Positions 3 through 4,261 of a stretch of DNA of 37,555 bases are shown piece by piece. The number at the start of each line of letters is the position of its first letter. Position 1 is the first letter of the stretch. The position numbers were made by a program, and so were the translations under genes. Origin of the DNA: Thermodesulfobacteriota bacterium. GTDB lineage: Bacteria; Desulfobacterota; BSN033; WVXP01; G020346125. Under the pieces are notes generated by a model. That model worked only from the letters and a program-made list of their open reading frames with translations, was not told the DNA's origin and did no database searches. Location: the NCBI GenBank assembly GCA_030145085.1, contig JAQYWG010000002.1, positions 1 to 37,555 of the forward strand, written 5' to 3'.

Positions 3-101
3 CTCCACGAAAAACTGGAGGGCCGAGTCGAACAATTAGAAAGAGCTCATGAACCACAGAAACGAAAACCACAATTGAGACAATCCAAGGGGAAAAGGTG
101 A
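3..101 (+). CDS. C-terminal fragment of an unidentified protein (5' end outside window)
   Basis: One frame is open from the window edge to a TGA at 99-101 and gives about 32 residues rich in Lys, Arg, Gln and Glu, with a short heptad-like start (LHEKLEGRVEQLER). The TGA overlaps the ATG of the next gene (TGATG), an arrangement typical of translationally coupled genes, which supports this being a real gene end. The family cannot be recognised from so short a charged tail. It could also be a chance open frame. Confidence 0.4.
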   Translation, partial: LHEKLEGRVEQLERAHEPQKRKPQLRQSKGKR

Positions 102-526
102 TGGAGTACCCAGAATTTTTGATGGATCACTTCCAAAGTCCTCGAAATGTTGGAGAGATCGCTGATGCCGATGGTACGGGAATCGTGAAGAATGCTACCT
201 GCGGCGACATCATGCAAATGTCCATAAAAGTGAAAGAGGATGTGATCGTGGATGCGAAATTCAAGACCTTCGGATGCGGCGCCGCCATTGCAACCAGCTC
301 CATCATCACCGAAAAGGTGAAGGGAAAGGGCATTAAGGAAGCTTTAAGGATTTCGGATGAAACGGCCAAGGACATCTTGAGCCAACTGTCCAGGGATAAG
401 TTTCCCTGCTTCACCTTGGCTGCCGATGCATTGAGGCTGGCCATAGAGGAATACTACTGCAACAAACAAAAAATCCACGACAAGGGGGGGATCAGGGAAG
501 AGGATTTGGAGAAAATCCTCCCTTGA
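101..526 (+). CDS. nifU: NifU/IscU-type iron-sulfur cluster assembly scaffold
   Basis: This 141-residue protein matches the IscU/NifU N-terminal scaffold family, on which a cysteine desulfurase builds [2Fe-2S] clusters before transfer to apoproteins. The N-terminus (YPEFLMDHFQSPRNVGE) is the family signature. The three ligand cysteines are at about residue 34 (ATCGD, including the Asp typical of the family), 59 (FGCGAA) and 103 (KFPCFTLAADAL). Length is normal for a stand-alone scaffold without the NifU C-terminal domain. A GTG three bases upstream is an alternative start, but the ATG at 101 is better spaced from the AAGGGG at 87-92. No cysteine desulfurase is visible in the window, so its partner presumably lies upstream or elsewhere. 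Confidence 0.9.
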   Translation: MEYPEFLMDHFQSPRNVGEIADADGTGIVKNATCGDIMQMSIKVKEDVIVDAKFKTFGCGAAIATSSIITEKVKGKGIKEALRISDETAKDILSQLSRDKFPCFTLAADALRLAIEEYYCNKQKIHDKGGIREEDLEKILP

Positions 527-752: not shown

Positions 753-1967
753 ATGGCAGGTCTTCGATATCATGGTTATGGTCAGCCAGCGTTAGGGGAG
801 ACATTTCAATGCTGGGACAAGAAGCCGAAAGATAGCTGGGGGGGCCTCATTACAAGGATGGCACCATTGATCGTTATATTTGGCCTCTTGATCTTTTGTC
901 AACGCGTTCAAGCAGTTGAATTGACGCTCCTCTATTCCAATGATACCCACGGGGTGATTGATCCCTGTCCCACCTGAGGAAATAGGCTTGTGGGAGGGTT
1001 GGCCCGGCGGGCCACCGTTATTAAGGATCTCAAGAAGGAAGGAAAAGAGCTCATCACCCTCGAAGCGGGCAACTCTCTCTTCAAGGGCAAGCGTTCTCCT
1101 TCTTCCGTCGAGAGGAAGAAGGCCAGATTAATTGCAACGGCTTACGGGCGGATGGGCTATCAGGCCCTCAACGTTGGATCGGATGACCTTTTGGCCGGAA
1201 TCGAATTCCTGAGGGAGTTGCAGGGGGAGATTCACTTACCCCTCCTGTCTGCCAACCTCCTGGGTAGAAAAGGAGGAAAACCGACCTTCAAATCCCACGT
1301 GGTGTTCGATCTCGACGGAATAAGGGTCGGCATTCTTGGCCTAACCTCCGATGCCCGCCACAATGAAGGCGTACCCCCTGAAGGCTATTTCGTATCCGAT
1401 CCAATAGCGGCGGCGAAGAGGGTTGCGGCCGAGCTTGCGAAGGACTGCGATATCATCGTGGCCCTCAGCAACCTGGGCTCTTTTAAGGAATATACCAAGC
1501 TGGTTCAACAGGTGAAGGAGATCCACTTCATCTTTGGAAGCGGAATGGGGAAATCCTACCACCAAACCATTCGGCCCGATGGAGGCTGGAAGGCCTTGCT
1601 TCTCCAGGTTTACTCAAAGGGACAGTACCTGGGGAGGATTGATCTGAAGGTTGTTAAGGGAGCCCGTGATTTCGTCGACCTCAGTCGCAAAGCTCAATTG
1701 GAAAAACAGATCAACAGTATCGAAAGGCAATTGGAATCTTACCAAAAGGGGACGGGAAGCGCCAAATCCATCCCCGAAGATAAGAGGAAAAAGTATATCA
1801 ACAGACTGGAGGAATTTAAGAAGAGGTCCGAGGCCCAGTTGAGCGAGTTGGAGAAGGATTCCCGGAGAAACAATACCTTCATCAATACTCCCATCCGTCT
1901 CGATGATAAGATAAAGGAGGATCCCGAGATAAAAGAATTGGTAGATCGGTTCAAGAAGGGGTTATGA
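753..1967 (+). CDS. Candidate selenoprotein: exported metallophosphatase-like protein with in-frame TGA (C-P-T-Sec)
   Basis: One frame runs for 405 codons, broken only by a TGA at 975-977 (codon 75). The upstream half has a strong ribosome site (GAGGTGAGGT before ATG 753), a hydrophobic export signal at about residues 37-54 and the 5'-nucleotidase-type start LTLLYSNDTHG. The TGA follows C72-P73-T74, so Sec would complete a CxxU motif. The same frame continues with GNRLVGGLARRATVI and a metallophosphatase-like core (LPLLSANLL, GIRVGILGLTSDA, CDIIVALSNLG), then a charged coiled coil at about residues 310-360 in place of the usual 5'-nucleotidase C-terminal domain. Several expected metal ligands look replaced (EAGNS for DAGD, LSNLG for LSHLG, FGSGM for GGH), so hydrolase activity is doubtful. 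A SECIS-like hairpin follows the TGA. An automatic caller would split it into a 74-residue fragment and a protein starting at GTG 990. The alternative is a simple nonsense mutation. An internal ATG at 858 would give a conventional-length signal peptide. Confidence 0.7.
975..1016 (+). promoter_or_regulatory. UGA codon with bacterial SECIS-like hairpin
   Basis: After the TGA (975-977) and a 19-base spacer, 997-1016 folds as GGT/ACC (997-999 with 1014-1016), a bulged T at 1000, then GGCCC/GGGCC (1001-1005 with 1009-1013) and a GGC loop at 1006-1008. The E. coli fdhF SECIS has the same GGU/ACC base, a bulged U at the same place and a loop beginning GG. Here the stem above the bulge is 5 bp rather than 3 and the spacer is longer than fdhF's 11 bases, but the loop still lies within the range described for bacterial SECIS elements. 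The hairpin encodes LARRA, so peptide constraint could explain part of the symmetry. Confidence 0.6.
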
Positions 1968-2034: not shown

Positions 2035-2613
2035 ATGGGAACATCCGAATCCACCCATGGTCGCCTATTTCACTTCTTTAGGTGGAATCACCTCTTCCCC
2101 AAACGACCAATGGCTGTAAAAGGAAAAACTCGCATCTTCCAACAAGTAATCATTATACTTCTCTTTTCCGTTGCAACAGCATTGATGACCAATGCGCTTC
2201 GATCAAATTCCCTTCCCTTAGTTGGAGACTGGTCTCAAGGGACTTTCTCTTTGAAAGCGGAATTGGATATCCCCACGGTTCCCTTGGAAGATGCCGTGGT
2301 AAAATTCTTATCCGACGAAGCCCTTTTTCTGGACGCTCGTTCCAGGGCTGATTACCAGTCGGGGCACATAAAAGGCGCCTTGAATTTACCCGTACGCGAA
2401 GGGAATTTCGGCCGGAGGCTTCAGGAGTTCTCGCTGAAGGTAGACCACGAAAAGGAGCTGATCATTTATTGCGACGGTATCGCCTGCACCTTAAGCCCCG
2501 AACTTGCCTCCATATTAAGGGGCCTGGGATACAGGGATGTTAAAATCCTGATCAACGGGTGGACCGAATGGACTATGACGGGAATGCCTTTCGAGGTAGA
2601 GGGGAACACATGA
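2035..2613 (+). CDS. Membrane-anchored rhodanese-domain protein
   Basis: The protein has one transmembrane segment at about residues 39-57 (VIIILLFSVATALMTNAL), then a conserved juxtamembrane stretch (SLPLVGDW) and a single rhodanese domain (residues 85-190). Rhodanese hallmarks are LFLDARSRADYQSGHIKGALNLP and the active-site loop IIYCDGIACTLS, with the sulfur-carrying Cys after IIY and a second Cys five residues on. The domain should face the periplasm. It likely carries persulfide sulfur or acts as a thiol redox partner. The start is uncertain: neither ATG 2035 nor ATG 2110 has a clear ribosome site. Its stop overlaps the start of the DoxX/MauE gene (ATGA), so the two are probably translated as a pair. 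Confidence 0.8.
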   Translation: MGTSESTHGRLFHFFRWNHLFPKRPMAVKGKTRIFQQVIIILLFSVATALMTNALRSNSLPLVGDWSQGTFSLKAELDIPTVPLEDAVVKFLSDEALFLDARSRADYQSGHIKGALNLPVREGNFGRRLQEFSLKVDHEKELIIYCDGIACTLSPELASILRGLGYRDVKILINGWTEWTMTGMPFEVEGNT

Positions 2614-3113
2614 AGGAGTTTATGCGGTCAATCTTCAGTCTTTATGCCAACCCCTATGTCTCCGTTATATTCCGCTGGGCAGTAGGTCTGATTTTCATCT
2701 ATGCCAGTGTGGATAAACTTCTCAATCCCTTGGCCTTTGGCGTTGCCGTGTACAATTACAAGATTCTTCCGGGAGGCTTCATTAATCTGGTGGCGATAAC
2801 GCTTCCCTGGTTGGAGTTGATCTGCGGAATCCTCCTCATCGCCGGATTGTTTCCGCGTGCAGCAGCCCTTATCGTGAGCGTTCTCCTCCTGATTTTCTTC
2901 TCCGCCCTCTCGACAAGCCTCTATCGGGGAATCGACATCAGTTGCGGTTGTTTCTCCGTGAACACCACTGCGGATACAATTGGCATCTCCTCAATGATAA
3001 GAGACCTGTTGATCCTGCCCATGAGCATCCAAATTCTCCTTTTCGACGAGGGACTGATAGGCATAGGTCGGGGACAAGATGGCAGAAGGTTCAAACCCCA
3101 CAATCTCGCCTGA
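2610..3113 (+). CDS. DoxX/MauE family membrane protein
   Basis: This 167-residue protein has about four membrane helices, starting at FRWAVGLIFIYASVDKLLNP, the recognisable beginning of DoxX/MauE proteins. A CGC motif (DISCGCF) in the last loop is the conserved Cys pair of MauE-like proteins, which support disulfide or electron traffic across the membrane. ATG 2610 is chosen because it overlaps the rhodanese stop (ATGA) and follows AGAGGGGAAC. An in-frame upstream start inside the rhodanese gene is unlikely. Context with the rhodanese and the candidate selenoprotein points to envelope thiol or sulfur chemistry; the substrate is not visible in the sequence. Confidence 0.8.
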   Translation: MKEFMRSIFSLYANPYVSVIFRWAVGLIFIYASVDKLLNPLAFGVAVYNYKILPGGFINLVAITLPWLELICGILLIAGLFPRAAALIVSVLLLIFFSALSTSLYRGIDISCGCFSVNTTADTIGISSMIRDLLILPMSIQILLFDEGLIGIGRGQDGRRFKPHNLA

Positions 3114-3490
3114 GGCTGAACTGCTGCAGTGGGTCCCATCTATACCTTCCGGACATTGGGTTAGTGGCCACCCCCGCCTCGAGGACCCGAGAAACCGGGA
3201 TTACCGTTGAGCTTGTCGGAATCTCCATGAGGTCTCCCCTTTACTCCATGCCAAACCTAGGAAGGGCTATCCTGAATTGAGCCCCAGCACAAATCTGCCA
3301 TGATGATCGCCGGCGAAAAAAAGGCGTTGGGACAAGGGACTTTCTGGACGAAAGGCCTGGCATATTGACCTCTTGATCCAAAGAAGTTATGTTGTTGAAC
3401 AAGAGTTCAGATTCCCACATGGAACCGGAGGGAAAGGATTTCGCCTGTAGAATCCCACGGCTCAAGAGCTTAGTTTGGAAGGGGACTGAG
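3114..3490 (+). other. Gap without a convincing gene
   Basis: There are 377 bases between the DoxX/MauE and XdhC-like genes. A frame starting at ATG 3079 stays open for 43 codons to a TGA and for about 30 more beyond it, but it overlaps the previous gene, has no recognisable motif and no convincing SECIS-like hairpin. No RNA gene, terminator or promoter was found. Confidence 0.4.
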
Positions 3491-4261
3491 ATGGAGGACA
3501 TATATCGAACATTGGTGGAAATTAAGGACCAGGGAAAGCGCTCAGCCTTGGCCGTCGTCGTACGTACGAAAGGGTCGACTCCGAGAAAGACTGGGGCCAA
3601 AATGATTGTCATGGAGGATGGGGGCATCCTTGGAACCCTGGGAGGTGGGGGTCTGGAAAAAAAGATCATCCAGGAATCCCTTGAAGCCCTCAAAGAAGGA
3701 AAAGCAAAACTGACATCCTTTACCCTCGAAGGGAGCTTGGACATGATGTGTGGCGGCGAGATTGACGTTTACATCGAACCCATTAACCAGCCGGAGAAAC
3801 TCATCATATTCGGTGCTGGCCATATTACGAACGCGTTGGCACCTCTGATGCGGTCGTTGGACTTTCGCGTTACCGTCGTGGACGATAACCCGGAAAAGCT
3901 CCAAGAAAATGGAATTACGGATATCGAGGACCTCTATTCGGAAGATATGGAGTCTTATGCGGAAAGGCTCTCCCCTGAAAGCAACGCATATATCATAATC
4001 CTTACCCGGGGTTTCTCAAAAGACAAGGCCGTCCTCGAACACCTCATCGCAAAGGACTTTCGCTATGTAGGGATGGTCGGAAGCGGGAGAAAGATCAGCA
4101 CCATCAGGGAAGATCTGATTTCGAAGGGAATGAAGAAGGAACATCTATCCAAACTCCACGCCCCCATAGGCCTGGATATCGGTGCGGAAACGCCAGAGGA
4201 GATTGCCGTCAGCATTGCAGCGGAAATCATCTCGGTGAAAAGGGGGAAAAGGGGCAATTAA
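3491..4261 (+). CDS. XdhC/CoxI family molybdenum-hydroxylase maturation protein
   Basis: XdhC/CoxI proteins bind molybdenum cofactor and help sulfurate and insert it into xanthine-dehydrogenase-type hydroxylases. The N-terminal domain shows KGSTPRKTGAKMIV, GTLGGGGLEK and MMCGGEIDVYIEP. The C-terminal part is a Rossmann domain (LIIFGAGHITNALAP, then VVDDNPEKL) ending with PIGLDIGAETPEEIAVSIAAEII, the typical XdhC end. ATG 3491 follows AAGGGG with good spacing and gives 256 residues; the longer frame from 3389 adds unrelated sequence. No hydroxylase structural gene is in the window, so the client is elsewhere. Five bases separate it from lgt. Confidence 0.85.
   Translation: MEDIYRTLVEIKDQGKRSALAVVVRTKGSTPRKTGAKMIVMEDGGILGTLGGGGLEKKIIQESLEALKEGKAKLTSFTLEGSLDMMCGGEIDVYIEPINQPEKLIIFGAGHITNALAPLMRSLDFRVTVVDDNPEKLQENGITDIEDLYSEDMESYAERLSPESNAYIIILTRGFSKDKAVLEHLIAKDFRYVGMVGSGRKISTIREDLISKGMKKEHLSKLHAPIGLDIGAETPEEIAVSIAAEIISVKRGKRGN

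Follow-up and report, generated by a model that had tools for sequence, protein, structure and literature searches.

A UshA-like exported protein with a probable C-P-T-Sec motif encoded by a Thermodesulfobacteriota bacterium

The 37,555-nucleotide stretch of DNA analysed here (the window) carries a UshA-like gene in which the in-frame UGA at position 975 is very likely read as selenocysteine (Sec) in an exported protein, and it is reasonably probable overall that this selenoprotein has a redox or sulfur-handling role. The frame from 753 to 1967 translates into 404 residues and is open save for one TGA at codon 75 (975-977), which lies three codons after Cys72 and so forms the CxxU motif C-P-T-U, as an earlier, sequence-only reading of this DNA had described. 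That reading also expected a standard gene caller to miss the gene or report a truncated protein from GTG 990, and the standard ORF list indeed holds only the fragment 990-1967 for this gene. Among the TGA-joined frames elsewhere in the window, none looked selenoprotein-like by eye. The selenoprotein call itself is borne out by a conserved TGA column, purifying selection on both flanks, a hairpin shared by the family, and selA, selB and selD in the genome. The features are listed in Table 1.

Table 1 Features of the UshA-like locus in the window
Feature	Positions	Strand	Evidence and remarks
NifU/IscU-like scaffold protein gene, upstream neighbour	98..526	+	Pfam NifU_N, 130 bits
UshA-like (seleno)protein gene	858..1967	+	369 residues, Sec = residue 40; translation, aligned starts, NF041198 232 bits, NF049981 123 bits
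Probable signal peptide MAPLIVIFGLLIFCQRVQA	858..914	+	Hydrophobic N-terminus common to homologs; predicted from sequence
C-P-T-Sec motif	966..977	+	Cys72 codon 966-968, TGA (very likely Sec) codon 975-977 (numbering from 753)
Candidate bacterial SECIS hairpin	985..1013	+	Loop GGUUGG 997-1002, 19 nt after UGA, -15.7 kcal/mol
Rhodanese-domain protein gene, downstream neighbour	2035..2613	+	Pfam Rhodanese, 60 bits
MauE/DoxX-like membrane protein gene	2559..3113	+	Pfam MauE, 85 bits
XdhC-family maturation factor gene	3389..4261	+	Pfam XdhC_C, 136 bits

The start at 753 proposed by the sequence-only reading is probably wrong. An ATG aligns with position 858 or just before it in two of the three same-genus relatives, and upstream of this position conservation of the frame is absent among them, so that ATG 858 is the more likely start. 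The protein beginning there probably carries a signal peptide, and the earlier description of the product as exported and metallophosphatase-like, here more precisely UshA-like, is supported.

A search of related genomes returned matches in 45 of 59, most of them bearing one internal TGA. The three same-genus orthologs (90, 76 and 67 % identity) all have the TGA at the identical codon, and it stands at the same column in 22 loci of distant homologs and in the genome's own paralog, a degree of sharing that is more than chance. A Cys or UGA column among homologs had been named beforehand as support for Sec, and at this column 26 relatives and paralogs have TGA, three have Cys and read PC-x-T-C (CxxC), and one has Arg; two loci, L045 and L016, apparently represent one contig (15,441 bases, identical protein) and were counted once. 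Purifying selection acts on both sides of the TGA in the genus, with dN/dS below 1: the mature part preceding the TGA gives 0.13-0.63 and the part following it 0.28-0.38, the highest values being those of the closest pair, which has few changes; over the first 60 codons after the TGA, this pair gives a dN/dS of 1.0 on eight changes. If the TGA were a true nonsense codon, in a pseudogene or through a sequencing error, only the GTG-990 fragment or nothing would be made, which would fit the ORF list and a selC gene missing from the assembly, but four species of the genus and the 22 distant loci share this TGA, selection has preserved both flanks, and the fragment would lose both the signal peptide and the domain's first strand. 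This reading is therefore extremely improbable.

The genome contains selA (635 bits), selB (368 bits, 637 residues) and selD (396 bits; L053 353-1276, G000:C470). The selD frame has a single internal TGA close to the N-terminus, the region of the Sec/Cys site in SelD proteins. Rfam, pattern and DNA searches found no selC in this metagenome-assembled genome (MAG) of 480 contigs, the Rfam search having scored 150 of 363 candidates, so that one could have been missed. The matches returned within the genome were tRNA-Ser, other ordinary tRNAs or chance matches only, and an exact 15-base anticodon-stem match on contig C221 is not a tRNA. In the same-genus genome G001 (L062, about 1560), a run of N directly adjoins the 3' part of a selC that closely resembles the one in G008, and in the same-genus genome G002 (C264:1) a contig starts about 75 bases downstream of the equivalent point; complete tRNA-Sec genes were identified by ARAGORN in two more distant genomes, G004 and G008. 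Since the genome has selA, selB and selD, and a run of N cuts selC in a same-genus genome, we infer that the absence of selC from the MAG reflects an assembly gap. The sequence-only reading had looked to the sel genes for confirmation and had held a lack of selB or selC to speak against Sec; selA, selB and selD were there, and selC was not found, which looks like the same gap.

Recoding without Sec, in which a suppressor tRNA or leaky termination would lead to Trp, Cys or some other residue at the UGA, is very improbable. The undetected selC and a window hairpin that departs from the family consensus would suit such recoding, but selA, selB and a selD that is itself TGA-bearing are present, selC exists in the genus, and the homologs without TGA mostly have Cys and are without the hairpin codons. 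The UshA-like gene also ends in TGA (1965-1967), so TGA is not always sense in its code.

Published constraints on bacterial SECIS elements are a loop of 3-9 nt starting 16-37 nt after the UGA, a G in the first two loop positions, a stem of at least 4 pairs and an energy of -7.5 kcal/mol or lower (PMC13188914), and the window hairpin satisfies them. Nearly all family members have a hairpin with the loop starting 18-24 nt after the UGA, a G among the first two loop positions and an energy of -8 kcal/mol or lower; in L020 and L037, the best-scoring hairpin of the scan is another one. The typical hairpin of the family is GGC-GGUCUG-GCC, coding for Gly-Gly-Leu-Ala, and the first Gly codon is GGC in 23 of 23 UGA genes outside the window's genus and in none of four homologs without UGA, counts that are not independent since the sequences are related. 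The fit of the hairpin to the model and the absence of GGC from the four homologs without TGA argue for the selenoprotein reading, as do the conserved TGA column with Cys in three homologs and purifying selection on both flanks; selA, selB and a TGA-bearing selD in the genome together with proximity to selA in nine loci; and the NCBIfam name "(seleno)protein" given to the relatives.

Several observations count against this explanation, among them the failure to find selC in the MAG. In the window's genus the first Gly codon is GGA or GGT, and the closing pair is GGA...GCC versus GGC...GCC in the family. Shuffled sequences of the same composition are about as stable as the window hairpin (z -0.62), so that by itself the hairpin is weak evidence. 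Synonymous sites after the TGA gave a mixed test, with 0 of 15 changed relative to L017 (p 0.02) and 4 of 10 relative to L018, and they are not quiet relative to L016 or L018. The candidate SECIS of the window gene therefore draws its support from the family-wide comparison. No relevant match came from scanning the genome with Rfam SECIS_1 or the locus with all Rfam families, but SECIS_1 also matched none of the control genomes, so this absence carries no weight. A further point on the opposing side is that, in the closest relative, G003, one presumed partner gene is fragmentary and the other gave no match (see below).

Although the sequence-only reading had offered a candidate new selenoprotein, the family is not new: it is already catalogued, if uncharacterised, under the NCBIfam models NF041198 ("UshA-like (seleno)protein") and NF049981 ("UshA-like (seleno)protein family 2"). 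The CxU type was described in 2008 from Global Ocean Sampling data (PMC2398784), and both UshA-like types, family 2 with CxxU, appear in a 2026 review (PMC13188914); the literature searched contained list entries for this family and no experimental study of it. The window protein does not reach the cut-off of NF041198 (275 bits) or of NF049981 (140 bits), the other scanned CxxU homologs also lie under both, and a CxU relative (L038) scores 523 bits on NF041198. Since it matches both models and scores under both cut-offs, the window protein is an unlisted member or subfamily of the UshA-like selenoproteins. With NF041198 (CxU, PCGU; COG0737-type), aligned over window residues 49-402, it shares an exported UshA-like domain, the same position of Sec behind the first motif and a post-UGA hairpin, but it has CxxU (CPTU) instead of CxU and is without the C-terminal haem region. 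With NF049981 it shares the CxxU motif, which lies in the best match, the N-terminal 86 mature residues, but this strongest stretch reaches no further than the model's first third. A tree of the CxxU, CxU and CxxC types resolved no single origin of CxxU and contained several long branches, the window's genus forming a separate long-stemmed clade. Another UshA-like protein of this genome (L106 4570-3521, G000:C119) is of the CxU type, with PCG-U, and its gene has the usual GGC GGT codons in the hairpin.

The dimetal ligands of UshA are DxH, GD, GNH and a later His. By sequence the window protein has the same domain as UshA 5'-nucleotidases and SoxB thiosulfohydrolases (2z1a, 1ush; TIGR04486), but several of the dimetal ligand positions are replaced and a CxxU is added. 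Compared with solved nucleotidases, DxH is kept, GD has become GN, GNH has become GSD and the later His has become Asn, in an alignment that does not include the last His pair; matches to the window protein also end before the C-terminal domain of the nucleotidases. The selenoprotein might still act as a phosphoesterase that depends on metal, or as a sulfohydrolase like SoxB, with Sec serving as an auxiliary residue or binding the metal, a reading in keeping with its similarity to 5'-nucleotidases (5e-12) and to SoxB (86-96 bits in three relatives), with the retention of the first-motif D and H in the window protein and L016, and with a rhodanese neighbour that fits sulfur chemistry. It is unlikely, given that the other ligand positions of the window protein are changed, that the first His is Arg in L017 and Gly in L018, and that the first Asp and His are lost in most relatives. 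Several CxU relatives have C-terminal CxxCH haem motifs, pointing to electron transfer. The replaced ligands and these haem motifs lead us to favour a periplasmic redox function of the CxxU pair over phosphatase activity. If the UGA is indeed read as Sec, a selenol/thiol redox or sulfur-handling role in the periplasm is somewhat favoured, on the basis of the motif and the neighbouring genes only. An AlphaFold model built from two sequences (pLDDT 42) was too poor for use.

The gene order in the window is NifU-like, selenoprotein, rhodanese, MauE, XdhC and Lgt. The rhodanese gene has no in-frame TGA, and its product weakly matched two NCBIfam models of rhodanese selenoproteins, TsoB and LYCAU. 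At the locus of the closest relative, G003 (L093 6303-6789), the rhodanese is found only in pieces and no match to MauE was obtained, so the two partners are not obligatory. In nine homolog loci, of the same order and class, the UshA-like gene lies 1.8-2.2 kb from selA, the intervening gene being a radical-SAM gene in both of the two loci scanned with Pfam, with a B12-binding domain in one; in G008 (L095 4105-10835) selC, selA and the UshA-like selenoprotein gene fall within 7 kb, with selC about 2.4 kb from selA. In the present genome selA lies elsewhere, beside a TIGR04190 radical-SAM gene followed by an FdhE-like gene with no selenoprotein between, and the window gene is therefore either relocated or a distinct copy.

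In the proposed mechanism, SelA, SelB, SelD and tRNA-Sec would decode UGA 975 as Sec, directed by the hairpin just downstream of it. The mature protein would have a UshA/SoxB-type domain without most dimetal ligands, in which the CxxU pair, placed right after the first metal-ligand loop, could cycle through a selenenylsulfide, perhaps together with the rhodanese and the MauE-type membrane protein encoded nearby.

A set of CxxU relatives falls outside the two curated UshA-like models, and annotation pipelines would truncate their genes. Only tentatively, such relatives may form a further, unnamed CxxU subfamily of UshA-like selenoproteins in which a hydrolase fold lost its metal site and gained a Sec redox centre, in many genomes beside selA and so perhaps in selenium handling. 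The lost metal ligands, the CxxU motif and the repeated placement near selA offer an entry point into what this uncharacterised group does.
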